NCBI RefSeq assembly: GCF_019879105.1
Contig: NZ_CP082249.1
Coordinates: forward strand, 2,294,001 to 2,358,000
Reading direction: 5' to 3'
Origin: Natrinema sp. SYSU A 869
Lineage (GTDB): Archaea; Halobacteriota; Halobacteria; Halobacteriales; Natrialbaceae
DNA length: 64,000 bases
Shown: one piece after another, positions 40,417 to 57,894 of the stretch
Layout of the letters: each line of letters begins with the position of its first letter
How positions within the stretch are numbered: the stretch's first letter is position 1
The notes under the pieces: model-generated
The model's input: only the letters and a program-made list of their open reading frames with translations
Databases searched by the model: none
Told to the model about the DNA's origin: nothing
Made by a program: the position numbers and the translations under genes

Positions 40417-42399
40417 TCACACTTCGTTATCGCCCGCTCGGTGTTCGCTGATGAGTTGGTCGACCATTGCAGCTTTGCGATTCCGCCGTCGATCCGCGGC
40501 GCGTTCGTGCCAGTCGTTGATGGCAGCTTCGACGTCGTCTTCCCGGGCGACGGCGAGTTCGTCGACCTCCTGCATGGCGACGTCGTCGGCGGGACCGACT
40601 GGAATCTCGGCCTCGAAGAGTAGCTTGTCGGCGATATCGGAGAGGCCGCCGTCCTTGAGGATGACGCGAGGGTCGAACTCCGCGAGTAGTTCGGCCGTCG
40701 AGCGGCCCGCACCGCTGGCGTCCCGGATGTAGACGATGTCGCCGCTCGCGATGCCATACTGCTCGTTGGCCTCGCGGATCGCTCCCTTGGTGAACTTCTC
40801 GACGACCTTGACGGGGACCAGCCCTTCCTTCTCCGCGGAGACGTCGCTAAAGTTCGAGTGATCGAGCTTCCAGAGGGCCTTCATGCGATCGACCTTCTTC
40901 TCGAGCGTTTCGACTTCCTCGCGGGCCTCGTCACGCTCGCGCTCGAGTCGGTTGGCCTTCCGCTCGAGGCGGCTGACTTCCCGATCCCGGCGGACTTCCT
41001 TGCGTTCCTCGCGGCGGGCGACGCCGAGTTCGGTCTCGAGCTCGTCGATCCGGTCGTCGCGGTCTCCGACGCGGCCCTCGAGTCGCTCGACGTGTGACTG
41101 GAGGCGGTCGACCTGTCGCTCGAGGTCCTTGATCCGTTTCTCTTCCTCGCTCAGTTCGCGGGGCTCGTGCTCGGTGGATTCCTCTTCGGGCTCTTCGTCG
41201 TCGTTGAGGTCCCGCAGGACGGCCTCGACGCTCTCCTCGCCGGCGACGACGCGGGCGGTGACCTCGCCGCGGTCGATTCCTGGCGGGAGTTTGTCGGCGA
41301 TCCGCTCGAACTGGTCTTTGTGGGCGTCGAGCGCGTACAGCGCGGCGGCCATCGCGTCGCGCTGGTGGTCGTCGTCGTAGGGGTGCTCGCGCGTACGGTG
41401 TTGCTTCTCGTCGATTGGGAGGTCGCTCTCGGGGGTCCAGCCCGCGGCGTCGAAGCTGCGGCGGAACTTCTCGACGGTTTCGGGTATCGGCGTCACGTCG
41501 GCCGCGACGACGACCGGGCGGCCCCGCTCGACGATCCACTCGATCACATCGGCGGTGTCGCTGGTTCGCGAACTCCAGACGTCGAGGACCTCTCCCTCGA
41601 GACCGACGATGGCGACGGCGGTCGTCGTCCCGGGGTCGATGCCGACGATGACGTGGTCCCGGCGCTTGACCAGCGGCTCGAACTCGATGCCATCGCGGCG
41701 CTGGCGTTCGATCTCGACGCGGACATCGCCCGACCGATTTCGCGAGACGGGGATGTCGCTCGGGCGTGCCTCGACGGTGAAGACGGCGTTGGCGAAGCCG
41801 CCGTAGGCCTCCCGAACCTCTCGCTCGTACTCGAGGTTGGCCTCCTCGAGTTCGGACTCGACCTCGCGGGCTCGTTTCCTGACGGAGCCGTGGATGCGGC
41901 GGGTGTAGCGGTCTTCACTCCACCCGCCGCTGCCGGTCGAGCGGCCGCGTGCGACCTTGACCTCGGTCGTATCGGTGAAGGCCGACACTTCGTGGCCGAC
42001 GTTGTGGGCGGCCAGTCGGGCGGCGGCCTCGGCCTCCTGCATCGGATCCTTCCCGTAAGGGACGTTGTGGCGGTTTGCAACGCGGGAGAGGGGCTCAGGC
42101 TGTTCGGCACCCGTCACTTGGACGAGCCGGGTCCCGGCGGGCAGCGAGCCGAGGAAGTGGATGAGCTGGTCCTTGTCGGCGGCCAGCTCGTACATATTGT
42201 CGGTTGCGATGATCGCCGGCTCCTCGTCGTCGATCAGTCGCCTGAGTTTTCGGTGGGTGACGACGTCCCGACTGACGTCGTCGCCGTCGTAGACGGCCAG
42301 TGCGTACGACGGTGCATCGCCACGCACGTCACCACTCTGGATGTCGACACCGAAGACGACTGCATCGAGCGCACTCGTTCGCGTACTCACAGGGGCCAT
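40417..42399 (-). CDS. DUF460 / RNase H-like protein with coiled coil
   Basis: A 660-aa archaeal protein. The N-terminus (AVVFGVDIQSGD) and the middle (VIVGIDPGTTTAVAIVGLEG, about residues 246-265) each look like an RNase H-fold strand with a key aspartate. A long coiled coil follows (about 405-530, rich in ERxxDRLEREV). The C-terminal domain contains DIVYIRDASGAGRSTAELL and IAVGP-type strands. DUF460 proteins are conserved in archaea with suspected nucleic-acid roles, but no reaction is assigned. The upstream gap leads to the polysaccharidase cluster. Confidence 0.82.
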   Translation of the reverse strand: MAPVSTRTSALDAVVFGVDIQSGDVRGDAPSYALAVYDGDDVSRDVVTHRKLRRLIDDEEPAIIATDNMYELAADKDQLIHFLGSLPAGTRLVQVTGAEQPEPLSRVANRHNVPYGKDPMQEAEAAARLAAHNVGHEVSAFTDTTEVKVARGRSTGSGGWSEDRYTRRIHGSVRKRAREVESELEEANLEYEREVREAYGGFANAVFTVEARPSDIPVSRNRSGDVRVEIERQRRDGIEFEPLVKRRDHVIVGIDPGTTTAVAIVGLEGEVLDVWSSRTSDTADVIEWIVERGRPVVVAADVTPIPETVEKFRRSFDAAGWTPESDLPIDEKQHRTREHPYDDDHQRDAMAAALYALDAHKDQFERIADKLPPGIDRGEVTARVVAGEESVEAVLRDLNDDEEPEEESTEHEPRELSEEEKRIKDLERQVDRLQSHVERLEGRVGDRDDRIDELETELGVARREERKEVRRDREVSRLERKANRLERERDEAREEVETLEKKVDRMKALWKLDHSNFSDVSAEKEGLVPVKVVEKFTKGAIREANEQYGIASGDIVYIRDASGAGRSTAELLAEFDPRVILKDGGLSDIADKLLFEAEIPVGPADDVAMQEVDELAVAREDDVEAAINDWHERAADRRRNRKAAMVDQLISEHRAGDNEV

Positions 42400-43031: not shown

Positions 43032-44891
43032 ATGTCAGAGAATACGAACCCAACCGATTCAGAGGCACAGTCGAATAGCGCCAGTCGGGACAGCTCGACG
43101 TCACGCCGAACGATACTGCAGGCCACGGGGACGAGCGTGCTCGCAGTCGGCGGTCTCGGTAGCATCGCGGGCTCTGCAGTGGCCCAAGAAGCCACCCTCC
43201 CGCCGTTAGCCCGAGACGGAAACAAGATCGTCGATCCGAGCGGAAACGAAGTCATCCTTCGGGGAGTGAACATCGCCGATCCGGGCGAACAGAGCCGGCA
43301 GTGGCGGGGTCAGACCGCTCCCGAGACGTTCGAACTAGCCACCGACGAGAGCCAGGGGTGGCATACCAACATCGTCCGGGTACCGGTAATGCCTTCGTTC
43401 CTCGCGGCCGGGACGCGCGCCCCCGCACCGCACGAGATGCCCCACGGCGACGACTGGGGTCCGGCCCTGCCGGGACAGTTCGATAGAACCGACGTCAGGT
43501 GGTACTGTCAGACCTATCTCGACGATCTCGTCGAACTCGGTGCCCAGCGCGGCGCCTATGTGATGATCGACTACCACCGTCACTACCCGATCTTCCATCA
43601 GGAGGACCACAAGAACCACGGTGTCGATGGGAACGTCTGGCAGTGTTCGTCCGACGGGGGCGAAGACTGGCGAAATCCGGAGGTCTGTGGCGAGCGCGGC
43701 GTACTCTGGCACGGTGAGGACCAGGTCGACGAGATCTGGAACTTGATCGACGAACAGAACATTCTCGAGGCGTTCGACCTCGAGGAAGACGACATCTATC
43801 TCGAGCCCCCGGAGATTACGAACGCGCTCGACGAGGAGTTACACCTGTTCTGGGAGGTCGTCGCCGACCGATACGCCGAGGACGACCACGTGATCTTCGA
43901 CGTCTACAACGAGCCGACCGGCCCATACGGCGGCGACTGGGGCGGCCCACAGCGACAGGCGGGCGAACTCTCCGATCCGGCGGTAGCTCCCGGCGAGGGA
44001 GATGCGAACGATTACGACGCCGCTCACGAGGACATGAAAGCCTGGTACGACCTGTGGGTCGATCGCGCCCAGCCGTGGGTTGACACGGTCGAGAACAACG
44101 CGCCCGGTCACCTGATTACGATCGGGAGTCCACGGTGGAGCCAGTACACCTACTGGGCACCGTACAACGAGTTCGATGCCGAGAACATGTGTTATACCGG
44201 CCATGTCTACACGCAGGACGGCCTGCGGCCGCTCACGAAGTACTTCGGCGAACCGTCCGAACACGTCCCGGTCTTCTTCAGTGAGTTCGGGTGGATCGAA
44301 GGCGGCGGCAAGCACGTCGATACGCCCTGGATGGACTGTAGCGGCGAACACGGTGGCGACTGTGAGCCCTATATTCAGGAGTACGAGGAGTTCATCAAGA
44401 ACTACGACGTCCACCCGCTGGCGTGGTCGTTCGACCACACCTATGAGCCGAATATGTTCGAGCACGGGACGCCGGGAGCGAACGACGGCGCGAAGGGTGC
44501 CGACGACTGGATGAACTACCTGAACGACGAGACGCCCGGCGTCTGGTGGCACGAACTGAACCAGGAACTAGCCGGCGACCGCGACACCTTCGCGCCCGGC
44601 GAGGACCCGTACCCGGACGCCGACAACGGGAAGAACGACAAGCACGTCGGTCCCGGTCCGATCGACGGTGACGAGACGATCTCGGTCGGCGACCACGAGG
44701 CACGGGATACGAACGACGACGGTCTGTACAACGACGTCGACGGAGATGGAGAGACGACACACGAAGACGTCAACGCCTTCTTCGAGAACCTCGAGTCCAA
44801 CGGCGTCCAGAACAACCCTGACGCCTTCGACTTCGACGAGAACGGTCAAATCGGCTTCTCGGACGTTCTCGATTTGCTTCGTCGAACCTAA
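43032..44891 (+). CDS. Exported GH5 glycoside hydrolase with dockerin-like tail (1)
   Basis: A 619-aa protein. Tat signal SRRTILQAT (Arg25-Arg26), processing probably near AVAQ (residue 52). The GH5 domain spans about 55-510: VILRGVNIADP, a metal- or substrate-side YHRHYP, acid/base Glu294 in VYNEPTGPYG, IGSPRWSQ, and nucleophile Glu418 in FSEFGW. A Cys/His/Trp-rich insertion (190-240) is unusual. A dockerin-like module (547-619) has calcium loops DVDGDGETTHED and DFDENGQIGFSD. Probable beta-1,4-glucanase. It heads the cluster, 165 nt before the scaffoldin gene. Confidence 0.88.
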   Translation: MSENTNPTDSEAQSNSASRDSSTSRRTILQATGTSVLAVGGLGSIAGSAVAQEATLPPLARDGNKIVDPSGNEVILRGVNIADPGEQSRQWRGQTAPETFELATDESQGWHTNIVRVPVMPSFLAAGTRAPAPHEMPHGDDWGPALPGQFDRTDVRWYCQTYLDDLVELGAQRGAYVMIDYHRHYPIFHQEDHKNHGVDGNVWQCSSDGGEDWRNPEVCGERGVLWHGEDQVDEIWNLIDEQNILEAFDLEEDDIYLEPPEITNALDEELHLFWEVVADRYAEDDHVIFDVYNEPTGPYGGDWGGPQRQAGELSDPAVAPGEGDANDYDAAHEDMKAWYDLWVDRAQPWVDTVENNAPGHLITIGSPRWSQYTYWAPYNEFDAENMCYTGHVYTQDGLRPLTKYFGEPSEHVPVFFSEFGWIEGGGKHVDTPWMDCSGEHGGDCEPYIQEYEEFIKNYDVHPLAWSFDHTYEPNMFEHGTPGANDGAKGADDWMNYLNDETPGVWWHELNQELAGDRDTFAPGEDPYPDADNGKNDKHVGPGPIDGDETISVGDHEARDTNDDGLYNDVDGDGETTHEDVNAFFENLESNGVQNNPDAFDFDENGQIGFSDVLDLLRRT

Positions 44892-45056
44892 CCAACAACG
44901 GGATAGATATTATTAAACCAAGCTACTATGAAAAATTTATTATGAAACATCTGAAATCCCTCTCGGGTCGACTCCCACGAACAACCGTCTCGGATCGGCC
45001 TCGAGGCGCGAGCAGGCAGCACAGGTAACGATAGTAACCGATACGGAGAGATATCA

Positions 45057-47306
45057 ATGAACGACGACATCGATACGCACGACGAGGAACAGTTCGCCGA
45101 AACCGATCGCCCGACGGACACGTCCACATCACGACGCACCTTCATGCGGGCCGCCGGTGCCAGTGCGGGTGCACTCGCACTCGGGACGTCGACGGTCGCG
45201 GCCCAAGCAGACAGCCCGACGGTGACGGTCGACATCGCCGACGAACAGATTCAATCCGGTGAGACGACGACTGCGACGGTCCGGCTCGAGAACTCCCCTG
45301 TCGGTTCGATCGGCTCTGCCGTCGAAATCGCGCTCGATCCGGACGTCGCCCAGATCACCGAAGTAGAAGGTGGTGACTACTTCCCGGAGAGCCCCCTCGA
45401 TTTAGAGGAGAGCGTCAACGAGGATATCGAAGAGGCGGGTGGCTCCGTCTCGCAACTCCGTGTCCAGCCGTACGCGCCGGATGGAATCAACGAGACCGGG
45501 TACGAGGTGGCGACCTACCACCTCGAGGCTCAGGGTGAGGGCACCACTGAGATCGAGCTCGTGGATATCATGCTGACCATTCCCGACGGAGACAATATCT
45601 ACGGCGCCAACTACGATGCATCGACACTGACCGTCGGTGACGTCATCGATGAGCCCGTCACGCCCGCAATGCCGTCGGACCTCGAGGTCGTCGCCGAGAA
45701 CGAGACATCGGTCGAGGTCGCGTGGAGCCCCGTGTCGAACGCTGTCGAATATGCCGTCTCAGTCGATGGCGAGCAGGAATCCACGACGACCTCGAGTAGC
45801 GCAACTATCACTGGACTCGAGGCAGACACCACCTACGAGATCGGTGTCAGCGCTCTCGGCGAGGGCGACACGATGTCCGAGACGGTGACGGTTCAGGCGA
45901 CGACGGTCACCGGTGCGGAGCCGGAGACGCCCACGCTCACGGTCAACCTCGACGATGCGGTGATCGATCCGGGCGAGACGACGGCCGTCGACCTCGGCCT
46001 GAGCGAAGCGCCGGACGGTGTGGTCGGATTCACTATTGAGGTCGGTATCGATCCAGACGTTGCGACCTTCGCCGATGCCGAACTCGGCGAACTGTTTGTT
46101 GACGCTCAGGAGATGTTCAAGACCGTCGAGGTCGAAGACGACTACGCGAAACTCAAGGCGCTCGATCCCGTCGACGCTGGGACCACTGACATCGAGTTCG
46201 GTCGGATCGACCTCGAGGGTGTGGCAGACGGCGAAACCGTCGTCGATGTCGACATTATCCGACTCGAGGACAATGTTGACAACGTTGCTATCGAACCGAC
46301 GGTCGAAGAGGCGATGCTCACCGTCGGTGACGGCGAGCCGGACAGCAAACCGCCGAGCGTCCCCGAGGATCTTGAGGTCGTCGCCGAGACTGAAACGTCG
46401 GTCGAGGTCGCGTGGAGCACCGATCCGAACGCCATCGAGTACAACGTCTCGGTTGATGGCGAGCAGGAAACAACCACGACCGCGAGCAGCGCCACCGTCA
46501 CTGACCTCGAGTCCGGTACCACCTACGAGATCGGTGTCAGCGCCGTCGGTGCGGACGACACGGAGACCGACGCCGCGACGGTTACTGCCACGATCGCAGA
46601 AGCCAATACGCCGCCGAGCACGCCCGAGGGACTCGAGGTCGTCGACGAGACCGAGACATCGGTCGAGGTTGCATGGAGTTCCGATCCGAACGCCGTCGAG
46701 TACAACGTCTGGGTTGACGGCGAGCAAGAAACTACCCTGAGTTCGACCAGTACCACTGTCACCGACCTCGAGTCCGGTACCACCTACGAGATCGGTGTCA
46801 GCGCCGTCGGTGAAGACGGCACGGAGACCGACGCCGCGACGGTTACTGCCACGACCGCGGACACGGACGATGGCGACGGAAATGACGGCGACTACCCCGA
46901 GTGGGACACTAACACGCTCTATCAGGAAGGCGACCACGTCCACTGGAACGGTGAGAACTGGGTCGCACAGTGGACGAACAAGGACAAAGAGCCCCGCTAC
47001 GAGGACCTCTACGCGTGGGAACCGGTCGACGGCGAGATTCCGCTCGAGGTAGACCACTTGGCGACGATCGATCCGAGCGCTACAGATGTCGACGCCGGCG
47101 AGCGCATCGACGTCCGGGCGACGGACAACACCCCCGACGATATCTGGATTGACGGACTTCAGTGGGACTTCGATGACGGAACGACTGCCAGCGGCTGGCA
47201 CGCCGGCCATTCCTTTGATTCCAGTGGGGCCTACACGGTGACGCTCACTGCGACGGACCAGCGGGGACGCGAGACCACCCACGAGGTCGAGATCACGGTC
47301 GCCTGA
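45057..47306 (+). CDS. Scaffoldin-like protein: two cohesin-like modules, FnIII x3, CBM5/12, PKD
   Basis: A 749-aa Tat-exported protein (SRRTFMRAAG; cleavage near residue 50) without a catalytic domain. Cohesin-like module 1 (54-196) shows VTVDIADEQIQSGETTTATV, IALDPDVAQITEVEGGDYF and the strand YEVATYHLEAQGEGTTEIEL; module 2 (292-425) shows the same order with VGIDPDVATFADAELGELF. FnIII modules lie at 203-284, 433-514 and 519-600. A CBM5/12-type module (613-657) has six Trp/Tyr including WDTNTLYQEGDHVHWNG and WVAQW. A PKD-like domain ends the protein (664-749). GGAG 8 nt before the ATG is a Shine-Dalgarno. No anchor helix, dockerin or SLH domain is seen. The cohesin reading is from pattern, not a profile search. 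Confidence 0.78.
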   Translation: MNDDIDTHDEEQFAETDRPTDTSTSRRTFMRAAGASAGALALGTSTVAAQADSPTVTVDIADEQIQSGETTTATVRLENSPVGSIGSAVEIALDPDVAQITEVEGGDYFPESPLDLEESVNEDIEEAGGSVSQLRVQPYAPDGINETGYEVATYHLEAQGEGTTEIELVDIMLTIPDGDNIYGANYDASTLTVGDVIDEPVTPAMPSDLEVVAENETSVEVAWSPVSNAVEYAVSVDGEQESTTTSSSATITGLEADTTYEIGVSALGEGDTMSETVTVQATTVTGAEPETPTLTVNLDDAVIDPGETTAVDLGLSEAPDGVVGFTIEVGIDPDVATFADAELGELFVDAQEMFKTVEVEDDYAKLKALDPVDAGTTDIEFGRIDLEGVADGETVVDVDIIRLEDNVDNVAIEPTVEEAMLTVGDGEPDSKPPSVPEDLEVVAETETSVEVAWSTDPNAIEYNVSVDGEQETTTTASSATVTDLESGTTYEIGVSAVGADDTETDAATVTATIAEANTPPSTPEGLEVVDETETSVEVAWSSDPNAVEYNVWVDGEQETTLSSTSTTVTDLESGTTYEIGVSAVGEDGTETDAATVTATTADTDDGDGNDGDYPEWDTNTLYQEGDHVHWNGENWVAQWTNKDKEPRYEDLYAWEPVDGEIPLEVDHLATIDPSATDVDAGERIDVRATDNTPDDIWIDGLQWDFDDGTTASGWHAGHSFDSSGAYTVTLTATDQRGRETTHEVEITVA

Positions 47307-47493
47307 TCACGCTTTCCGACATCGGTCGGGGACTATCGTCGCGGGCCGTCTTTCGAATCTGACGGCCTTCGAGGAGACCCCGACGATGTCACCGGAAACG
47401 ACCGAATCAGTTCACAGACGTCCGCAACCTGTCCCGGTTGCGCTGACGATGGCCGTTCTGTGAGTTCGGTCATGTTCTCGGATTAAAATAAAA

Positions 47494-47526
47494 TAACTAG
47501 ATATTTAGTTAATTTCAATATTATAG
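47494..47526 (+). promoter_or_regulatory. Inverted repeat and TATA box before the second GH5 gene
   Basis: TAACTA-GATATT-TAGTTA (47494-47511) stands directly upstream of ATATTATAG (47518-47526). The implied transcript start near 47550 leaves a leader of about 45 nt, which explains the Shine-Dalgarno GAGG at 47581-47584, 8 nt before ATG 47593. The arrangement (inverted repeat just above TATA) resembles that at 42896-42937, though the sequences differ. Confidence 0.5.
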
Positions 47527-47592
47527 AGTACCAATATGCGGCGAATCGCAGACACTGCGGACGAAGACACGCGAATCAGTGAGGAAACACCA

Positions 47593-49650
47593 ATGCAATC
47601 GCACGATACCACACAGCAGACGGACGAATCGACAGCAACGAACGAGAACACGCGCCGGAGCGTCCTTGCGCAAGCGGAGACCGACGGAACGTCGCCGATC
47701 ACTCTCACTCGGCGCAACGTGATGCGAACGACTGCTGCCGCGGGCGTTGCCGGCCTCGGACTGAGCGCCGGCTTCGCCGGTACTGCGGCAGCCGGAGGGA
47801 TCGACGAGTTCCAGAACCTGACGGTCAGCAGCGATAACCGGATCGTCAACGAGGACGGCGAGACGTTCAAGATGCGGGGGCTCAGCATTCCCGATCCGAA
47901 GCGACTCCACCGGACGCGGAACCTTCGCGGGAAGACGCCGGAACAGCTCCTCGATATGGTGACGAACAACGAGGCGGGCTGGCACCCGCGGGTCATCCGC
48001 GTTCCCGCCCAACCACAGGACATCGGCGAACATCCGATGGGTCACACCGGGCCCGAGTACGAATACGGCGAACTCGAGTCTCCGCAGGCGGTCGACAGCG
48101 ACCGGCGGAAGCAACGGCCGGCGCAGCCGTCGGCGTTCACGCAGGCGGAACTCGAGGACTATCTCGACAACTACTACGAACCGATCGTCGAGCGCTGCAA
48201 GGAGCGTGGCGTCTACTGCATCATCGACTATCACCGGCACTGGCACGAGCAGCCACCGGGCATCGAGCAGCCCTCGTACGCCGAGAACCACTTGCCGTAC
48301 AACAGCGACTACACGAACTACTGGGCGTACAACAGCCACGAGATGTTCGGCGAGGACGAACCGGGTTCCTGGGGGTACGTCGATCAGACGTACATCGAGA
48401 ACACCCCTGGCGACGATTACGTCGAGGGTCTCAACGAGGGCAACCTCGAGGGAACGCCGTACGCGTACGAGAACTGGACGGTCAACCAGGAGTTGCTCGA
48501 CGAGGTCCTCATGTTCTGGGACGAGGTAGCCGAGCGGTACGCCGACGAGCCTCATGTGATCTTCGAACCGTACAACGAGCCGACCGCACCGGGTATCTGG
48601 GGTCCCGTCGACGGCTGTGGAGCATTCAAACAGAAGCCCCTCTGGGACACGTTCCTCGACGACTTCATGGGCCCGATCATTGAGAAGATCCGAGAGTACC
48701 AGTCCGACCGCGTTCTGCTGGTCGGCGTCCCCGGCTGGTGTCAGTCGGTCCAGGCGCTCCACTGGCGGAACTTCAACGACGCGGGCTACGACAACATCGC
48801 CGTCACCTGGCACAACTACGCGGGCCACGACGTTAGCCAGATGAACAACTGGTTCAACGACACGGACTACCAGAGCCCCGAGGCTGTCGAGGCCGAAACC
48901 GGGGAGGAACTCGAGAGCCCGTACCTCCCGGTGGACGACGACCCCTACGAGCCAGCATGCTACGGCTGGGAGGCCTATGAGGCGGCCGGGCTTCAGAACG
49001 CGATGGACCATCACCCCGTCGCTATCACCGAATTCGGCTGGATCAACAACGCGGACGTCTCCCATTGGCTGCGCGGAACGACCACCGGTCAGGGCACGCT
49101 CCCCGAATACGGCGTTCCCTTCCTCGATCAGGTCGAGCAGGACGACCGAATCAGCTGGGTCGGCTGGTGTGCTGACGTCCGCTGGCTGCCGAAAATGTTC
49201 GAGGTTCCGTGGGAGACCGAAGAGGGCGAACTCGACCTCGTCAACGACAACTTCTACGACACGTCATTTGAGGACATTCCGGTCGGTTGCGAAGACCCAC
49301 CCTGTGAGTGGACCCTGATCGGTGGCGAGGACAGTGGCGTGTACCTCAAGCAGATGCTCGGGGAGCACAAGGACGATACGGTGCCGTTCGACACGAGGAC
49401 CGTCGGCGACCCTGAAGATCCCGACGGCGACGAGACGATCTCGGTCGGCAGCCACGAGGCCCAAGACACGGACGACGACGGCCTGTACGAAGACGTCACC
49501 GGCGACGGGGAGACGACCCACGAGGACGTCGACGCCTTCTTCGAGAACCTCGAGTCCGACGGCGTCCAGGACAACCCCGGACAGTTCGACTTCGACAAGA
49601 GTGGACGGGTCAGCTTTGCGGACGTCATCGAGTTGCTGCGGAAGATCTGA
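47593..49650 (+). CDS. Exported GH5 glycoside hydrolase with dockerin-like tail (2)
   Basis: A 685-aa protein with Tat motif TRRNVMRTTAAAG (Arg40-Arg41) after a long polar head. GH5 domain about 75-600: FKMRGLSIPDP, YCIIDYHRHWHE, acid/base Glu329 in EPYNEP, WHNYAGHD and nucleophile Glu480 in ITEFGW. A region of about 100 residues between YHRH and the acid/base (220-300, rich in Tyr/Asn) is inserted relative to gene 4 of the set. The tail (about 613-685) is dockerin-like with loops DVTGDGETTHED and DFDKSGRVSFAD. I chose ATG 47593 over 47536 because the TATA box lies too close to the latter and GAGG precedes the former. Confidence 0.88.
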   Translation: MQSHDTTQQTDESTATNENTRRSVLAQAETDGTSPITLTRRNVMRTTAAAGVAGLGLSAGFAGTAAAGGIDEFQNLTVSSDNRIVNEDGETFKMRGLSIPDPKRLHRTRNLRGKTPEQLLDMVTNNEAGWHPRVIRVPAQPQDIGEHPMGHTGPEYEYGELESPQAVDSDRRKQRPAQPSAFTQAELEDYLDNYYEPIVERCKERGVYCIIDYHRHWHEQPPGIEQPSYAENHLPYNSDYTNYWAYNSHEMFGEDEPGSWGYVDQTYIENTPGDDYVEGLNEGNLEGTPYAYENWTVNQELLDEVLMFWDEVAERYADEPHVIFEPYNEPTAPGIWGPVDGCGAFKQKPLWDTFLDDFMGPIIEKIREYQSDRVLLVGVPGWCQSVQALHWRNFNDAGYDNIAVTWHNYAGHDVSQMNNWFNDTDYQSPEAVEAETGEELESPYLPVDDDPYEPACYGWEAYEAAGLQNAMDHHPVAITEFGWINNADVSHWLRGTTTGQGTLPEYGVPFLDQVEQDDRISWVGWCADVRWLPKMFEVPWETEEGELDLVNDNFYDTSFEDIPVGCEDPPCEWTLIGGEDSGVYLKQMLGEHKDDTVPFDTRTVGDPEDPDGDETISVGSHEAQDTDDDGLYEDVTGDGETTHEDVDAFFENLESDGVQDNPGQFDFDKSGRVSFADVIELLRKI

Positions 49651-49832
49651 GCGTCACTCAGTGAGTGGCGGACTGGTGACGGAGTCGGAACGCGTTCGCG
49701 TCGGGGAACCAGCTGTTGGGGACCCGGGGACGCTCACGGGCCTTCCGGTCCGTGAGCAAGCGTTCTGTCTGCACACCATTTGAACGAACTATACGAAAAC
49801 AAATCCAAATTGACACGTTGGAATTAAAAGGT

Positions 49833-51989
49833 ATGAAAGAAACTCACTTGCACTTCAATAAGAACGGTTCGGACACGCCGAGGCGGACTCTCGGTCGCCG
49901 GTCCGTACTGGGATCGATTGCGGCACTCGGAACAGGCTACGTCGTCGCGTCGACGGCAGCGGCCCAATCGTGGTCGGACATCGACGATCCGTACTACGCG
50001 ACCCTCGCGGATGACCTCGCAGCACGCGGACTCCCGCAAGGGGAGTTCTGCTACGGTGACAGCGAGGCCGAGACGATGGACGCCTACGACGTCATCGGAG
50101 ATGTCGAGGCGACGGCGATTGAGGCCCCGGATGATCTCCCGTTCAACGAGGCGATGCGCCTCGAAGTCAGCGACGACGTCTCCGATCCGTGGGACGCAAT
50201 CCTGAACGCGACGGTCGAGGACCGCGGTGTGGAAGCGGGCGACGTCTTGTTGGGCGTCGCATATCTTCGGGAGGGGCCAGCGAGTGCAACCGAGGGCGTC
50301 GTTCAGTACACCGCCAAGGACGAGGACAACACCGAAACCAGCGAGGTGGTCAATGCTGCTACCCCCTCGCTCCCTCGCGAGTGGCGTCGGTTCTTCTTCC
50401 GAATCGAGTTCGACTACACGAGTGATCCCGGCGACTGGTGGACGGAGTTCTTCCTGGGATACGATTCGCAGACAGTCGATGTCGGCGGCCTGGCCCTGTT
50501 GCAGTTCGGGGGATCGGTTTCGACCGACGACCTACCCGACTCCGATATCGATTTCGGCTACGACGGCCGCGCTGAGGATGCAGCTTGGCGGCAAACGGCC
50601 CGCGAGCGGATCAACGAGATTCGTCGGGCACCGCTCACCGTCACGGCCACCGACGAGAACGGCGAGCCGATCCCCGACGCCGAGGTCGAGGTGGAGATGC
50701 AGGAGCACGAGTTCGGCTTCGGCAGCGCCGTCGCCGTCGATGAACTGCCCTCGAACGAGCAGTACCAGGACGTCTTCCTCGAGAACTTCAACGAGGCAGT
50801 CACGGAGAACGGCCTCAAGCGGGGCGCGTGGGACGGCGAGTTCGGCTCGAGCTTGGGCCCCGAGAATACGACGGCCGCGGTCGATTGGCTCAATCAGCAC
50901 GATGTCCCGACTCGAGGGCACACGCTCCTGTGGGGGACGTACGACGCCATGGGCGTCGATACGGGCCAGTCCGAGTCAGAAATCGTCGCGGAGATCGAGA
51001 GCGCGATCCGCGAGCGTGCCGCGGCGATGGACGGGCAACTGCTGGAGTGGGACATGCACAACCATCCGGTGATGTATCCCGAGATCACCGACGACCTCGG
51101 GCGAGAGCGGGTCGTCGACTGGTGGTCGGCGGCGATCGACGAGGCTCCTGAGACGCCCATGTGGGTCAATGAAGGTCGAGTCCTCTCGGCACGCAACGGC
51201 AACCGCGAGCCGTACCACGAGTACCTCGAGTGGCTCGAGGGCATCGAGGCCGATATTGGCGGTATCGGGTTCATGGGCCACTTCGGCGTGGATTACCTGC
51301 GCCCGCCAGCGGACCTCCTCGAACTCTTCGACGAGTTCGCCGCGTTCGACGTCCCGCTGAAGATCACCGAGTTGGACATTACCCTCAACGACTCGATGGA
51401 CGAAGACCAGATCGCGGCCCGTCGTGACTACATGCGCGATCTCCTCATCGCGGCCTACAGTCACGAGGCCCTCGAGAGCGTCCTCCACTGGGGATTCTGG
51501 GCGAATCAGCACTGGCGGCCGTCGGCGGCGCTGTACGACGAGGACTGGACGCTCCGTGCACACGGCGAGATCTATCGGGAGCTCGTCTTCGAGGAGTGGT
51601 GGACGGACGAGGCCGGATCGACCGACGCCGACGGGAAGTACACGACCGATGCGTATCTGGGCGACCACGAGGTGACGGTGACGGTCGGCGAGGCGCAAAC
51701 GACCGAATCCGTCTCCCTCACAGCTCCCGACGACACCGCCGAGCTGACGGTCGATATCGATAGGGCTACCGACACGATCGAGGTCGGCAAGTACGAGCCC
51801 CAGGACACGACTGGCGACGGTCGCTACGACGATGTCACCGGTGACGGGGAGACCACCCACGAGGACGTCACCGCGTTCTTCGAGAACCTCGAGTCCGATG
51901 GCGTCCAGACCAACCCTGACGCCTTCGACTTCGACGAGAACGGCCGCGTCGGCTTTGCGGATGTCCTCGCACTCCTTCGGGATGTCTGA
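49833..51989 (+). CDS. Exported GH10-like protein with dockerin-like tail, altered acid/base
   Basis: A 718-aa protein. Tat motif GRRSVLGSIAALG; N-terminal jelly-roll-like carbohydrate-binding region (about 60-235); short carboxypeptidase-regulatory-like strand domain (LTVTATDENGEPIPDAEV, 268-285); GH10-type barrel (about 290-590) with RGHTLLWG (361-368) and nucleophile Glu513 in KITELDI. Where GH10 enzymes have WDxxNE, this protein has WDMHNHP, His411 in place of the acid/base Glu. It may be inactive, act differently, or bind polysaccharide only. A beta-rich linker (593-645) leads to the dockerin-like tail (646-718). Confidence 0.8.
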   Translation: MKETHLHFNKNGSDTPRRTLGRRSVLGSIAALGTGYVVASTAAAQSWSDIDDPYYATLADDLAARGLPQGEFCYGDSEAETMDAYDVIGDVEATAIEAPDDLPFNEAMRLEVSDDVSDPWDAILNATVEDRGVEAGDVLLGVAYLREGPASATEGVVQYTAKDEDNTETSEVVNAATPSLPREWRRFFFRIEFDYTSDPGDWWTEFFLGYDSQTVDVGGLALLQFGGSVSTDDLPDSDIDFGYDGRAEDAAWRQTARERINEIRRAPLTVTATDENGEPIPDAEVEVEMQEHEFGFGSAVAVDELPSNEQYQDVFLENFNEAVTENGLKRGAWDGEFGSSLGPENTTAAVDWLNQHDVPTRGHTLLWGTYDAMGVDTGQSESEIVAEIESAIRERAAAMDGQLLEWDMHNHPVMYPEITDDLGRERVVDWWSAAIDEAPETPMWVNEGRVLSARNGNREPYHEYLEWLEGIEADIGGIGFMGHFGVDYLRPPADLLELFDEFAAFDVPLKITELDITLNDSMDEDQIAARRDYMRDLLIAAYSHEALESVLHWGFWANQHWRPSAALYDEDWTLRAHGEIYRELVFEEWWTDEAGSTDADGKYTTDAYLGDHEVTVTVGEAQTTESVSLTAPDDTAELTVDIDRATDTIEVGKYEPQDTTGDGRYDDVTGDGETTHEDVTAFFENLESDGVQTNPDAFDFDENGRVGFADVLALLRDV

Positions 51990-52058
51990 CTGGCGACCGA
52001 GCAGCGACGAGCGACCGAGACAGCAATCACAGCGACAACAGCGAGACAGCACACGACC

Positions 52059-53597
52059 ATGACCATGAACGAACACGAGATACGACGAGAACGGAACAGC
52101 GACGAACCAACGACCCGCGGCGATCGATCGCCACCAAACGCAACCGACTCCGACGCGGTGAGCAGCCCTGAATCGAGTCGCACACGCCACTCCCGACGGG
52201 GCTTTCTCGCGATGGCCGGCGTCGGCACGGCCGGCGTAGCGGCCAGTGTGCTGGCTGACCCCGCACGCGCCGCTGACGGCACGGCCGACCGAGGAATCGA
52301 AACCCCGTGGCTCGAGCGCGACGGGAACGTGCTCCGCGATCCGACTGGAAACGAGGTCGTGCTCCGCGGTGTCAACGTGATCGACCCCGCGCGCACGGCA
52401 CGGTCGTGGCGTCGGCCACTCTCGGCGACGATTGATCACGCGACCGACCCCAACAGGAACTGGTATGCGCGGATTATCCGTATCCCAGTCCAGACCGGAG
52501 ACATCGTCTCCGTCGACACGGACGATGGCAGCGTGAGCGGTGAGCCCCAGAACGAAGTCGATCCGGGAACGTTCACCAAGGCACAGCTCGAGGCCTACAT
52601 CGAGCATCACCTCCGACCGGTCGTGGAGTACTGTACGGAGGTCGGCGTCTACTGCATCGTCGACTACCATCGCCACTCAGACACGAGTCTCGAGTACACC
52701 GATCCCGACCTCGACGAGGAGGTCCGGCTGTTCTGGAACACCGTCGCTCCCGAATTCGCCGACGACTCTCACGTTCTCTATGAGGTGTACAACGAGCCGA
52801 TCGGTCCCTACGCCGGCCAGGAGCCGGGCGAGGAGTACGACGTTCACGGTGCTGACGCCGAGCAGACCTGGCTCGAGTGGCGCGAGACCGCCCAGCCATG
52901 GGTCGACACCATTCGGGACCACGCCGAGCGCAACGTCGTCATCATCGGCTCACCGCGGTGGAGCCAGTACACCTACTGGGCACCACACCACGAGTTCAAC
53001 GGAGAAAATCTCGCGTACGCGGGCCACGTGTATGCCGGCCACGACGGGCTGCGGCCGCTCGGGGACTACTTCGGCGAGCCGTCCGAGCAGGTCCCAGTGT
53101 TCCTCACGGAGTTCGGCTATCAGGGCGACGCTGGGACCCCCCTCACGGGAACGACATCCGAAGACGGCGCGGCGTTCGAGGCGTTCTTCGATGAGTACGA
53201 CACCGTTCACCCCCAAATCTGGTGTTTCGACCCGGCCTGGCAGCCGATCATGTTCGATTCCGCCGACGATACCCAGAAGTGGGACCTCCTCGGCGGCGAG
53301 GACTACCAGGGAGAGTGGTGGCAGACGTATCTGGCCGATCGACGCACCGACGACCTCCCCGAGACGAACGGCGGTTCGGATTCGATTGCGGTCGGCGACT
53401 ACGAGGCCCGGGACACGGACGGAGACGGACGCTATGAGGATATCACCGGTGACGGGGAGACGACCCACGAGGACGTCGACGCCTTCTTCGAGAACCTCGA
53501 GTCCGACGGCGTCCAGACCAACCCCGATGCCTTCGACTTCGATGGGAACGGCCGAACCGGGTTCTCGGACGTCATCGAACTGCTTCGGAACGTCTAG
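52059..53597 (+). CDS. Exported GH5 glycoside hydrolase with dockerin-like tail (3)
   Basis: A 512-aa protein with Tat motif SRRGFLAMAGVG (Arg46-Arg47) and probable cleavage near residue 71. GH5 domain about 80-430: VVLRGVNVIDP, YCIVDYHRHSD, acid/base Glu246 in EVYNEPIGPY, GSPRWSQYTYWAP and nucleophile Glu351 in LTEFGY. It shares blocks with GH5 gene 1 (WSQYTYWAP, GLRPL..YFGEPSE) and is its closest relative here, without the insertion. Dockerin-like tail 440-512. It begins 69 nt after the GH10-like gene, probably in one operon with it. ATG 52065 is an alternative start. Confidence 0.9.
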   Translation: MTMNEHEIRRERNSDEPTTRGDRSPPNATDSDAVSSPESSRTRHSRRGFLAMAGVGTAGVAASVLADPARAADGTADRGIETPWLERDGNVLRDPTGNEVVLRGVNVIDPARTARSWRRPLSATIDHATDPNRNWYARIIRIPVQTGDIVSVDTDDGSVSGEPQNEVDPGTFTKAQLEAYIEHHLRPVVEYCTEVGVYCIVDYHRHSDTSLEYTDPDLDEEVRLFWNTVAPEFADDSHVLYEVYNEPIGPYAGQEPGEEYDVHGADAEQTWLEWRETAQPWVDTIRDHAERNVVIIGSPRWSQYTYWAPHHEFNGENLAYAGHVYAGHDGLRPLGDYFGEPSEQVPVFLTEFGYQGDAGTPLTGTTSEDGAAFEAFFDEYDTVHPQIWCFDPAWQPIMFDSADDTQKWDLLGGEDYQGEWWQTYLADRRTDDLPETNGGSDSIAVGDYEARDTDGDGRYEDITGDGETTHEDVDAFFENLESDGVQTNPDAFDFDGNGRTGFSDVIELLRNV

Positions 53598-53756
53598 GTC
53601 CAGACGGACTAGTCTCTGATCGATATCTCGATCCGTCGACCCGGCTGCGATCGGGTACCCGTTTCGACGGATTGATTGCCACAGACCGACCGTTCTCAGA
53701 GACATTTTATTTGGGGAAGGTTTCACTTGGAAATAAGTTGAAGTAGTTAGTATACT

Positions 53757-55265
53757 ATGAGTTCCGATAATCGTGCGGGCGAGAAGCGGCCAACCGAACG
53801 AGTGGACCAGCGATCACTGCGACCAACGCGACGGGCGTTCGTGAAAGCGGCGGGCGTCGGGACGGCTGGCCTCGCACTCGGTGGGATGGGTGGATCCGCA
53901 GCGGCGGTCGATAATCCGACACCGCGCCTACAAACCGACGGGAAATGGATTGTTACCGGTGACGGACAGCGGGTGAAACCCCGTGGAGTCTCGCCGGCGT
54001 CGCTGGATTACCTCGAGTCGATACACCCCAAGAGTCAGCAGGAGATCCTCGAGCACGCGACCAACGGAACGGAGTGGCACCCGAACACGGTCCGACTGCC
54101 GGTCGTGGAAGACGCGGTCCACGAGCAAGGGATGCAGTACGTCGTCGATGAACTCCTGCGGCCGGCCGTCGACGTGCTCGCCGATCGGGGCGTCTACGCG
54201 ATGATCGACTTCCATCTCATTCGACCGTACGTGGAGGCCCTGAGTCACGGGGAAGGAATGGTCGAGGACGGCTGGGCGGACAGCCTTGATGACCTCGGCT
54301 TCGATCCCCACGTCGGCACCGACGACCTGTTGACGGAGTTCTGGAGCGCAGTGGCTCCGGCGTTCGCCGACGACGAAAACGTCCTCTTTGAACTGTTCAA
54401 CGAACCGACGCTCCCCGTCACGTGGTCGACCTACGGGGAACACGGTTCGGCGGTCCAGACGAGGGAAGACGAGTGGATGCTCTGGCGCGACACCGCCCAG
54501 TCGTGGGTCGACTCGATCCGGGACGAGGCACCCGAGACGCCGATCATCATCGGCTCACCCGACTGGACCTCCCGAACGAAATTCGCCGCCGAGTACCCCT
54601 TCGACGGGGAGAATCTGATCTATTCCGGCCACATATACCCGGACAACGGCCTCCCACATGACACGCTCGAGCGGGGAGACGAAGGTGATACGTACGAGGT
54701 GGGTCCGTTCGATCCCGAGTACGGTGCGCCCGCCGAGGAGGTCCCCGTTATCATTACCGAATTCGGCTGGGATCCCGACGAAGACTTCCGAGAAAGCGTC
54801 GAATTCGGCACGACGAGCGGGTGGGGCGAACCCGTCCGCGAGTGGCTAGAGTCCTACGAGAACATGGGCTGGATCGCCTGGTGTTTCGACGACACGTGGG
54901 CACCAACGTTCTTCGACTCGCCCGGTGATGGGGCCGGTGAACCTTGGGAACTGAAAGACGGAGACGAACAGATGGGCTGGTTCATCCGCGAGTGGCTCGA
55001 GGAGAGGAAAGACGACGTGATCGTCGGCGGTGGCAACGACGGGAGCGACACGATCGCGGTCGGCGACTACGAGGCGCGGGATACGGACGACGACGGGCTG
55101 TACAACGATGTCGATGGAGACGGGGAGACGACCCACGAAGACGTCGACGCGTTCTTCGAGAACCTCGAGTCCGGCGGCGTTCAGGACAACCCCGAGGAGT
55201 TCGATTTCGATGAGAATGGTCAAACCGGATTCGCGGACGTTCTCGAACTGCTCCGGCGGACCTGA
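53757..55265 (+). CDS. Exported GH5 glycoside hydrolase with dockerin-like tail (4)
   Basis: A 502-aa protein; Tat motif TRRAFVKAAGVG (Arg25-Arg26), cleavage near AAAV (residue 51). GH5 domain about 60-420: RVKPRGVSPAS, YAMIDFHLIRP, acid/base Glu216 in ELFNEPTLP, IIIGSPDW, GHIYPDNG and nucleophile Glu335 in ITEFGW. The substrate-side FHLIRP replaces the YHRH found in genes 1-3, so specificity may differ. Dockerin-like tail about 429-502. The preceding 159-nt gap holds ACATTTTATTTGG about 45-55 nt before the ATG, suggesting its own promoter. Confidence 0.9.
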   Translation: MSSDNRAGEKRPTERVDQRSLRPTRRAFVKAAGVGTAGLALGGMGGSAAAVDNPTPRLQTDGKWIVTGDGQRVKPRGVSPASLDYLESIHPKSQQEILEHATNGTEWHPNTVRLPVVEDAVHEQGMQYVVDELLRPAVDVLADRGVYAMIDFHLIRPYVEALSHGEGMVEDGWADSLDDLGFDPHVGTDDLLTEFWSAVAPAFADDENVLFELFNEPTLPVTWSTYGEHGSAVQTREDEWMLWRDTAQSWVDSIRDEAPETPIIIGSPDWTSRTKFAAEYPFDGENLIYSGHIYPDNGLPHDTLERGDEGDTYEVGPFDPEYGAPAEEVPVIITEFGWDPDEDFRESVEFGTTSGWGEPVREWLESYENMGWIAWCFDDTWAPTFFDSPGDGAGEPWELKDGDEQMGWFIREWLEERKDDVIVGGGNDGSDTIAVGDYEARDTDDDGLYNDVDGDGETTHEDVDAFFENLESGGVQDNPEEFDFDENGQTGFADVLELLRRT

Positions 55266-55359
55266 GGTGCCCATCGAGGACTTCGAAGAGTCTACAGATC
55301 ACGACCCGGCCGGTGAGCGAGCCACATGACCACTGAACGACCGACGAGGACCTGAACAC

Positions 55360-56847
55360 ATGACTTCGGACAAACGCACGACAGACGAGTACGGAATCGA
55401 TCGACAGAACGGATCGACGCGGCGCCGCTTCGTGAAAGCGATCGGTGCGGGCGCGATGGTTGCCCCTTTCGCCGCCAGTACGGCGGCGGCCGCGACGGAA
55501 CCGACGACCGACCCCGACGACCTCGCATACGTCGAGACGGACGGGACCGAGTTCGTCGTCGACGGCGAGCCGGTCTACTTCAACGGGGCGAACAACTTCT
55601 GGATAACAGATAATTACGAAGGAACGAAGCAGTGCGTCGACGACGTTTTCGATCTCTTTCAGGACCTGGGCATCGATCTCGTGCGGTTCTGGGCCCACGG
55701 CGAGGGCAAAGACGGCCCCCTCTCACTCCAGCCGGAACCCGGCGAATACAACGAGGACGCCCTCGAGAACCTCGATTACCTGATCGAGGCGGCCAGAGAG
55801 CGCGGCATCAGGCTCATCGCGACGCTCGTGGACAACTGGGACCACGAAGGCGGGATGCTCCAGTACGCCGAGTGGGCGGGTGCCGAGTCCCGCTATGAGT
55901 TCTACACGATGGACGAGACGCGCGGTATGTACCGCGACCACGTCGAGACGATCCTCACTCGGGAGAATACCTACAGCGGAATCGAGTGGCGCGAGGATCC
56001 GACGATCGCGCTGTGGGAACTGGCCAACGAACCGCGTCTCGAGCAAAGCGATGTGCCCGCGGAGATGGATAACCTCGAACCGCCCGAACATCGCGAAACC
56101 CTCGGCGACTGGTTCGCCGACATATCAGAATACATCAAGGACCTCGACGGCAACCACCTCGTCTCGACGGGGTCGGAGGGCCACTACTACGGAACCTGGG
56201 AGGACGACTACCCGAACGACGATTGGGATGGCCAGGACTACGTCGGCCACCACTCGATCGACACGATCGACGCCTGTTCGTTCCACCTGTATCCCGACCA
56301 CTGGGACTTCCCGCTCGAGGACGGGGCGGCGTACATCCGAGACCGTGTCGTCGACGCCCACGAGGAGATCGGCAAGCCCGCCTATCTCGGTGAATTCAAC
56401 GTCGATACACAGCAACACGGGCTCGAGACCAGAACCGAGTTCCTCGACGAGTGGTACGACGTCGCCGACGAGTATGACTGCAACGCCGTCCTCCCGTGGC
56501 AGGTCGTCCTCGAGGACACCGAGGACCACGACGGATTCCAGCTGTACGCGAGCGAATCCGGGCATCTCATCGAGGAGTACGCGGCGGTCGTCGCGGAGAA
56601 GAGCGGCGGTGAGGACAATTCCGACCCAGAGACGATCCCGGTCGGCGAGTACGAAGCCAGAGACACGACCGGCGACGGGCGCTACAACGACGTCACCGGC
56701 GATGGGGAAACCACTCACGAGGACGTCGACAGCTTCTTCGAACACATCGAGTCCGCCGGCGTTCAGGACAATCCCGAGCAGTTCGACTTCGATGAGAACG
56801 GTCGAATCGGGTTTTCCGACGTCCTCGAACTCCTTCGGCAAGTCTGA
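55360..56847 (+). CDS. Exported GH5 mannanase-like hydrolase with dockerin-like tail (5)
   Basis: A 495-aa protein; Tat motif TRRRFVKAIGAG (Arg21-Arg22), cleavage near TAAAA. The GH5 domain (about 55-415) is of another subfamily: FVVDGEPVYFNGANNFW, LVRFWAHGEG, acid/base Glu224 in WELANEPR, CSFHLYPDHW and nucleophile Glu345 in LGEFNVD. This set resembles endo-beta-1,4-mannanases (GH5 subfamily 7-like) rather than cellulases; the subfamily is inferred from pattern. Dockerin-like tail about 422-495 with EHIESAGVQ, slightly divergent from the others. It lies 94 nt after gene 4 and probably shares its transcript. Confidence 0.88.
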   Translation: MTSDKRTTDEYGIDRQNGSTRRRFVKAIGAGAMVAPFAASTAAAATEPTTDPDDLAYVETDGTEFVVDGEPVYFNGANNFWITDNYEGTKQCVDDVFDLFQDLGIDLVRFWAHGEGKDGPLSLQPEPGEYNEDALENLDYLIEAARERGIRLIATLVDNWDHEGGMLQYAEWAGAESRYEFYTMDETRGMYRDHVETILTRENTYSGIEWREDPTIALWELANEPRLEQSDVPAEMDNLEPPEHRETLGDWFADISEYIKDLDGNHLVSTGSEGHYYGTWEDDYPNDDWDGQDYVGHHSIDTIDACSFHLYPDHWDFPLEDGAAYIRDRVVDAHEEIGKPAYLGEFNVDTQQHGLETRTEFLDEWYDVADEYDCNAVLPWQVVLEDTEDHDGFQLYASESGHLIEEYAAVVAEKSGGEDNSDPETIPVGEYEARDTTGDGRYNDVTGDGETTHEDVDSFFEHIESAGVQDNPEQFDFDENGRIGFSDVLELLRQV

Positions 56848-56958: not shown

Positions 56959-57894
56959 TCAGCCGTCCGGATACGCGATCTCGAGACTCTGCCCGTCGTC
57001 GGGGACGAACACGTTCGTCTCATCGCCCGCGAAGACCTCGCGGGCCTGCTCGAGGTGGGCGTCCGTCTGCCCGGCGTAGCGCGAGGAGAGATGCAGCAGC
57101 GCGAGTCGATCCGTGCCGGCTCGATTCGCGATTTCGGCGGCTTGGCGGGCCGTCGAGTGGGCGGTATCGGCAGCGCGCTCGGCGCGGTCGTCGGCGAAGG
57201 TCGCGTCGTGGATCAGCAGGTCGGGCTCGTCAGCGGCCTCGATCGCCGCCTCGGTAGGGCGGGTGTCACCGGTGTAGACGATCGAACGACCGGGACGGGG
57301 CTCGCCGACTACCTGCTCGGGGTCGACGACGGTACCGTCCTCGAGTTCGACGGACTTGCCCTCGTGGAGCCGCGAGAACTCGGGGCCGACGGGGACGCCG
57401 AGTTCCTCGGCGCGTTCGCGGTCGAATCGGCCCTTCCGGTCGTCTTCGACGAGCGCGTAGCCGACCGAGCGCGTGTCGTGGTCGGTGTCGAACGTGCGGA
57501 CCTCGTACTCCTCGGCGCGGTAGGCGACGTCGCCGCCGCCGACCTCACTGATTCGGACGGGAAACGAGGGCTGGTTGCCGAGGGCGTTCACCAGCGACTT
57601 GAGCTGACGGCGCGTGCCGTGGGGCGTGTGGATCGCCAGCGGCTCCTCGCGGTCGTTGAAGGCCATCGTCTGAAGCAGGCCCGGAATCCCGAGGACGTGG
57701 TCGCCGTGAAGGTGCGTGACGAACAAGTGTGAGACGGAAAACCCCGTCCCGAACCGCATCATCTGGCGCTGAGTTCCCTCGCCGGCATCGAACAGCAACC
57801 CCTCGCCCTCGCGGGCGACGAAGATGCTGCTCGGATTCCGCTCGGTCGTCGGAATCGCCCCGGCCGTCCCTAGAAACGTCACGCGCAGTGGCAT
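56959..57894 (-). CDS. rnz: Ribonuclease Z
   Basis: A 311-aa metallo-beta-lactamase-fold endonuclease. Zinc ligands appear in THLHGDHVLGIPGLL (about residues 59-73), in the late HDATF and in LHLSSRYAG; LGTAGAIPTTERNPSS is the usual opening. It removes 3' trailers of pre-tRNA in the cytoplasm. Convergent with the last GH gene, so it marks the right border of the polysaccharidase cluster. Confidence 0.96.
   Translation of the reverse strand: MPLRVTFLGTAGAIPTTERNPSSIFVAREGEGLLFDAGEGTQRQMMRFGTGFSVSHLFVTHLHGDHVLGIPGLLQTMAFNDREEPLAIHTPHGTRRQLKSLVNALGNQPSFPVRISEVGGGDVAYRAEEYEVRTFDTDHDTRSVGYALVEDDRKGRFDRERAEELGVPVGPEFSRLHEGKSVELEDGTVVDPEQVVGEPRPGRSIVYTGDTRPTEAAIEAADEPDLLIHDATFADDRAERAADTAHSTARQAAEIANRAGTDRLALLHLSSRYAGQTDAHLEQAREVFAGDETNVFVPDDGQSLEIAYPDG

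Follow-up and report, generated by a model that had tools for sequence, protein, structure and literature searches.

Does a run of seven genes in a haloarchaeon encode a cellulosome-like system, in which dockerin-bearing enzymes are gathered on a cohesin-bearing scaffold? Such machines are known from bacteria and, separately, from fungi. The window in which the genes lie, by which we mean the whole 64,000-nucleotide stretch of DNA that was analysed, comes from a haloarchaeal genome of 5.67 Mb in three contigs, belonging to the same genus as Natrinema ejinorense and N. salsiterrestre.

Gene organization and export

Seven open, co-directional plus-strand genes, designated P1 to P7, span positions 43032-56847 with intergenic gaps of 69-286 bp (Table 1). 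The order is a GH5 gene (P1), the scaffold gene (P2), a GH5 gene (P3), a GH10 gene (P4) and then three GH5 genes (P5, P6 and P7). The original prediction, made from the sequence alone, was of seven consecutive genes with five GH5 and one GH10-like enzyme, all exported by Tat, and this is borne out in full: the catalytic domains of P1, P3, P4, P5, P6 and P7 all exceed the Pfam cut-offs (E-values of 2e-10 to 2e-27 for the GH5 Cellulase family and 4e-27 for GH10), and a twin-arginine motif is present in all seven leaders. The cluster proteins are acidic, with 20-24% D+E.

Table 1. Features of the gene cluster and its flanks (window coordinates)
Feature	Coordinates	Strand	Basis
Left flank gene, presumably DUF460-like; one edge of the insertion slot	40417..42399	-	Synteny; next to right flank gene in congeners that lack the cluster
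P1, Tat-exported GH5 enzyme with C-terminal dockerin-like tail	43032..44891	+	Pfam Cellulase E 8e-19
P1 dockerin-like tail	44673..44888	+	Dockerin_1 E 0.0011 (isolated module); alignment
P2, non-catalytic Tat-exported scaffold, 749 aa	45057..47306	+	Pfam scan and comparison with relatives
P2 cohesin-like module 1 (X1), residues 52-198	45210..45650	+	AlphaFold, Foldseek, VIA; Pfam Cohesin E 7.9e-4 (isolated)
P2 cohesin-like module 2 (X2), residues 290-426	45924..46334	+	31% identity to X1; Pfam Cohesin E 4.8e-4 (isolated)
P2 fn3, top-scoring of three, residues 521-593	46617..46835	+	Pfam fn3 E 1.6e-24, 3 stretches
P2 CBM5/12-like module, residues 615-654	46899..47018	+	Pfam CBM_5_12 E 5.7e-4, under cut-off
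P2 PKD domain, residues 676-748	47082..47300	+	Pfam PKD_4 E 1.6e-13
P3, Tat-exported GH5 enzyme; tail 49432-49647	47593..49650	+	Cellulase E 4e-20; Dockerin_1 E 0.013
P4, Tat-exported GH10 enzyme; tail 51771-51986	49833..51989	+	GH10 E 4e-27; Dockerin_1 E 9.5e-4
P5, Tat-exported GH5 enzyme; tail 53379-53594	52059..53597	+	Cellulase E 1e-24; Dockerin_1 E 0.1
P6, Tat-exported GH5 enzyme; tail 55047-55262	53757..55265	+	Cellulase E 2e-27; tail by alignment and own profile
P7, Tat-exported GH5-like enzyme; tail 56629-56844	55360..56847	+	Cellulase E 2e-10; Dockerin_1 E 1.7e-4 (isolated tail); tail model pLDDT 97
Right flank gene, presumably RNase Z-like; other edge of the slot	56959..57894	-	Synteny

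Cohesin-like modules and dockerin-like tails

The architecture of P2 is Tat leader, X1, fn3, X2, two further fn3 domains, a CBM5/12-like module and PKD. It had been described beforehand as a non-catalytic protein with two cohesin-like modules and a CBM5/12; the modules are indeed present, but the three fn3 domains and the C-terminal PKD had been missed, and the CBM5/12-like module, although kept in nine of nine aligned scaffolds, scores below its Pfam threshold. A full-length scan of P2 yields no Pfam Cohesin match to X1 or X2. When isolated, the two modules do give weak matches, at 20.1 and 20.8 bits respectively, but these fall below the curated cut-off of 24.1, which is a model threshold and not a structural criterion. 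Within the family of 45 cohesin-like modules 19 match Pfam Cohesin (best E-value 5.5e-6), and when a profile was built from all 45 the top PDB sequence was the cohesin of Ruminococcus scaffoldin C (5lxv, E-value 1.7e-5).

The predicted structure of X1 is far less equivocal. In an AlphaFold model with pLDDT mostly 85-97, the module clearly has the cohesin beta-sandwich fold: the top 50 Foldseek matches in the PDB are all cohesins (E-value 2.4e-8), and in a VIA comparison, where the best match has a Z-score of 13.9 over 130 residues at 3.0 Å, the first 45 rows are all cohesins (Z 13.9 to 11.2) and the first non-cohesin follows at Z 11.1. The anticipated cohesin-fold match is thus obtained for X1; X2 is assigned as a cohesin by homology only. 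Elsewhere in the genome, cohesins of the X1/X2 family are found only at a locus encoding a PhoX-like protein, and when the genome is searched with Pfam Cohesin, P2 is missed and the only match is one unrelated membrane-anchored cohesin.

Each of the six enzymes ends in the same 72-residue tail, which contains two complete EF-type calcium loops and an extra upstream acidic motif. The tails are 71-85% identical to that of P1, and both loops are intact in all six by alignment. The only other place in the genome with a member of this tail family is the PhoX-like gene, so that six of the seven copies sit within 14 kb. The expectation that all six tails are dockerin-like calcium modules, and would be recognized by Dockerin_1, was met in part: matches are obtained (Table 1), but they lie under the curated cut-off (22.1 versus 22.9 bits for the isolated P7 tail), and P6 has no Dockerin_1 match in a full-length Pfam scan. 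The tails of several relatives do exceed the cut-off, and 41 of 44 tails match Dockerin_1 at E <= 0.1, the best at 5.7e-8.

Structural comparison again points to dockerins. The tail model (pLDDT 97, pTM 0.85) finds only dockerins as probable Foldseek matches (2ccl_B, probability 0.91; 2vn5_D, 0.89); the best E-value is only 0.24, which is unsurprising because only some 60 residues are aligned. Every one of the 19 VIA rows is an entry that contains a dockerin, with a moderate best Z-score of 5.9. Calmodulins fail as matches, with Foldseek probabilities below 0.1. As modelled, the tail has what a type I dockerin requires: paired helices carrying two EF-type calcium loops, in a dockerin fold.

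Two further analyses add no specific evidence for docking. A linked tail-X1 AlphaFold model gave a pTM of 0.52, with neither coordinates nor inter-domain error by which docking could be judged; the intergenic P1-P2 DNA, its stop codons read as residues, served there as a linker only, and no readthrough is claimed. Tail and cohesin distances are correlated (partial r 0.72 and 0.63), and the controls are 0.62 for the scaffold leader, 0.45 for PKD and 0.07 for the CBM. Because the scaffold leader correlates at 0.62, the tail-cohesin correlation is not specific, and we do not count it as a specific signal of co-evolution.

Relatives and comparative evidence

The same block occupies the same slot in six other genomes (G214, G353, G140, G211, N. 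ejinorense G258 and N. salsiterrestre G341), in each of which the stretch read showed at least one of the two flanks, and close variants are found in two more (G122 and G179). It is absent from most of the genus, and in most members without it the flanking genes are adjacent to each other, a clean absence; since the flanks adjoin where the block is missing, gain or loss has affected it as a whole. In G401 a two-cohesin scaffold occupies the slot without neighbouring enzymes, and two dockerin proteins, one of them GH81, are encoded elsewhere in that genome. The cluster is therefore no isolated oddity, the same or larger versions being present in at least 12 other haloarchaeal genomes. In related clusters the conserved neighbour is a scaffold with two or more cohesins, and the P1 gene lies immediately upstream of the scaffold gene there too. 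The larger scaffolds have 8 cohesins following an N-terminal GH5 (G368), 10 cohesins (G392), 5 cohesins with a dockerin (G265) or 3 cohesins with a dockerin (G061 and G166), and dockerins elsewhere in relatives are carried on GH9, GH10, GH43, GH81, rhamnogalacturonan lyase and esterase-like proteins.

Beside several of the scaffolds in relatives lie small proteins that have a single cohesin and a hydrophobic segment at the C-terminus. Such anchor-like proteins are seen in G353, G211, G341, G368 and G392, with PGF_CTERM scores under the cut-off. No cell-surface anchor gene was found in the window's own cluster (43032-56847), and for this reason its description as complete was too strong.

Two comparisons concern the tails directly. 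In P6 homologues outside clusters a PKD domain replaces the dockerin (G117 L104; L112, L113), and a further homologue, in G401, ends in fn3-PKD; as judged from domain content, PKD is supplied in trans by the scaffold and fused in cis on P6 homologues outside clusters. Tails from one genome share 80% identity and orthologous tails 67%, whereas for the catalytic parts the values are 25% and 80% respectively. As the tails are more alike within a genome than between orthologues, and the catalytic parts show the reverse, the tails evolve in concert. More broadly, among 392 genomes both families occur in 141, the cohesin only in 8, the dockerin only in 25 and neither in 218 (odds ratio about 154, phi 0.83, values that shared ancestry inflates). 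Most of this co-occurrence is contributed by the widespread PhoX pair, and no cohesin was detected in 25 of the 166 dockerin-bearing genomes.

A scaffold-plus-enzymes reading, its rivals and known systems

With six same-tailed enzymes beside a scaffold that has two matching sockets, the locus very probably encodes a haloarchaeal cellulosome-like machine; we put the probability at about 85%, with the binding of plug to socket inferred. What can be read from the sequences or models comprises the genes, leaders, catalytic domains, X1 cohesin fold, dockerin-type fold of the tail, conservation of the block and, in relatives, the larger versions and those with anchor-like proteins. The proposal of a scaffold-plus-enzymes system is supported by the fold match, the conserved block, the larger scaffolds and anchors, the dockerin/PKD exchange and the concerted tails. 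Two criteria for a cellulosome are met: a non-catalytic scaffold with at least two cohesins (P2, and up to 10 cohesins in relatives), and several different dockerin-bearing polysaccharidases (five GH5 and one GH10). The system is cellulosome-like by anatomy and evolution; membership hinges on binding, which has so far not been shown. That most of the Pfam scores are under curated cut-offs counts against this reading, as do the lack of an anchor in the window's own cluster and the dockerin-bearing genomes without a detected cohesin.

In the proposed mechanism, Tat would export the six polysaccharidases and the scaffold in a folded state, and calcium from the brine would load the dockerin loops. 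The C-terminal dockerins would then occupy X1 and X2 of the secreted scaffold, giving two enzymes per scaffold from a mixed pool of six, and the CBM5/12-like module could keep the assembly on plant polysaccharide fibre. Dockerins of this sort might also be retained on the cell in those relatives that have single-cohesin anchors. All of the binding steps are inferred by analogy with the cohesin and dockerin families, and the stoichiometry, any dependence on calcium and salt, the targeting to substrate and a role in growth are likewise inferences only.

The rival that we take most seriously, unlikely but not to be dismissed and in partial overlap with the scaffold reading, is that the tails mainly dock single enzymes on membrane-anchored cohesins, with the scaffold a minor or substrate-adhesion part. 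The PGF-type C-termini of small single-cohesin proteins in some related clusters are in keeping with this, as are the widespread PhoX Coh-Doc proteins with an adjacent single-cohesin anchored protein and the hydrolysis of insoluble cellulose only by cell-bound cellulases in cellulotrophic haloarchaea (PMC4569967); but the window's cluster is without such an anchor, outside P2 the genome has cohesins of this family at the PhoX locus alone, and it is the multi-cohesin scaffold that is the conserved neighbour in related clusters. Closer to the published haloarchaeal view is the suggestion that the tails are carbohydrate-binding or fold-stabilizing calcium modules without a role in protein docking. 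Dockerin type I is assigned to substrate binding in the Natronoglomus mannanivorans paper (PMC10963439), an assignment repeated in 2026 (PMC13260240), and acidic calcium loops also match EF-hands. Neither paper mentions a cohesin, however, and this suggestion sits poorly with the cohesin fold encoded by the adjoining gene, the concerted evolution of the tails, the cohesin/dockerin co-occurrence and the tail-PKD exchange; we consider it improbable.

Least credible of all is that no complex forms, X1 and X2 being Ig-like or adhesin beta-sandwiches of a generic kind and the tails decayed relics. The weak Pfam scores and Big_12 matches would fit, and CLIPPER adhesin and pilin domains do appear in the VIA comparison at Z 10-11, but 45 cohesin entries outrank them, the family profile picks out the Ruminococcus scaffoldin cohesin as its top PDB sequence, and none of the six tails has lost its calcium loops.

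The scaffold-plus-enzymes reading has its nearest counterpart in bacterial cellulosomes of the Clostridium thermocellum CipA type, which share a non-catalytic multi-cohesin scaffold with a CBM, represented here by a sub-threshold CBM5/12-like match, C-terminal dockerins on a pool of glycoside hydrolases and, to judge from the haloarchaeal relatives, dockerin-bearing scaffolds and separate single-cohesin proteins that are anchor-like. The haloarchaeal proteins differ in being acidic, in their Tat leaders, in having a CBM5/12-like module and PKD instead of CBM3, in the PGF-type anchor-like proteins of relatives and in cohesins that mostly go unrecognized by Pfam. Compared with bacterial dockerins the tail adds an N-terminal acidic motif and a hairpin, and loop residues 10-11 are unequal between its repeats (H-E, F-S/A), so that it lacks the two-fold symmetry seen in many dockerins of bacteria.

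Among archaea, the sizeable clusters encoding exported GH5 and GH10 enzymes in Natronoglomus mannanivorans and Natronobiforma cellulositropha (PMC10963439), which include a 'Dockerin/PKD' family protein, an fn3 protein and a 258-aa 'S-layer glycoprotein' with two TMHs, are probably the same kind of system, although no scaffoldin or cellulosome is mentioned there. Cohesins and dockerins are also known from ANME archaea, where a single protein can combine a dockerin with as many as 5 cohesins (PMC9012536), and a cohesin from Archaeoglobus fulgidus (PDB 2xdh); unlike the present locus, where scaffold and enzymes are encoded together, these are not connected in those sources with polysaccharide-degrading enzymes. 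The haloarchaeal PhoX pair uses the same two module families, but as a phosphatase pair and not a multi-enzyme scaffold. PMC9012536 (2022), citing a 2009 survey, describes archaea with cohesins or dockerins as without large scaffoldins, ANME being a later exception, and in PMC10267330 cellulosomes figure solely as a bacterial model. We found no description of an archaeal cellulosome in the open-access literature; subscription papers and preprints were outside its scope, so priority is not certain.

We lean, by a narrow balance, towards a wider reading in which haloarchaea have a cellulosome radiation of their own, aerobic and working in molar salt, ranging from two-cohesin secreted scaffolds to scaffolds of 8-10 cohesins with built-in GH5, with archaeosortase-type single-cohesin anchors, and possibly derived from a cohesin-dockerin pair that in an ancestor anchored a phosphatase. 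It would have been overlooked because the cohesins fall under Pfam thresholds. A scaffold-plus-enzymes system in aerobic haloarchaea could in itself account for the attack on insoluble cellulose by cell-bound activity alone noted above. It would also revise how dockerins are interpreted in the haloarchaeal CAZyme clusters already published, and it would supply salt-stable cohesin-dockerin pairs for engineering. We note that many haloarchaea, the window's genome included, encode a PhoX protein with a Coh-Doc tail adjacent to an anchored protein with one cohesin, and that a genome assigned to the cellulose grower Halococcoides cellulosivorans HArcel1 (G003) is rich in both cohesin and dockerin modules.

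Cohesins of the source genome and of the large scaffolds

The Pfam Cohesin model finds a single match in the Natrinema genome, a membrane-anchored protein, although this protein and the cohesins of the window scaffold P2 belong to different subfamilies. The pairing of a PhoX-like gene with a small anchored cohesin gene is widespread in haloarchaea; in the Natrinema copy the cohesin-dockerin tail and the catalytic part of the PhoX-like gene lie in different frames, reflecting either a frameshift or a sequencing error. A single-cohesin, anchor-like gene also comes after each of the two large scaffolds.

Cohesin, dockerin and scaffold features (G, haloarchaeal genomes, G000 being Natrinema; L, DNA stretches read; C3, contig of G000)
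Feature	Genome	Coordinates	Contig position	Placement
8-cohesin scaffold, N-terminal GH5-like region	G368	L084 2075-7381		
10-cohesin scaffold, N-terminal GH5-like region	G392	L166 5156-11467		
PhoX-like gene, cohesin-dockerin tail	G000	L015 6028-8705	C3:1422028-1424705	
Small cohesin protein, C-terminal hydrophobic anchor	G000	L015 8711-9526		Directly after PhoX-like gene
272-aa membrane-anchored cohesin protein	G000	L001 1213-2031	C3:1409536-1410354	
Scaffold gene	G401	L163 4728-6740		Same slot as window cluster
Orphan 68-aa dockerin ORF	G214	L075 9699-9905		Place of GH10 gene P4 in window

Apparently incomplete sets of modules

Two genomes of genus g57 (G119 and G143) have 5-7 dockerin matches and no cohesin match at an E-value of 10−6, so that either another cohesin subfamily is present or the dockerins have a different role. 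The G401 scaffold gene lacks adjoining dockerin enzymes, and a GH5 homologue of this genome (L105) carries fn3-PKD in place of a dockerin. In G214 a GH10 enzyme appears to have been lost, leaving the orphan dockerin behind.
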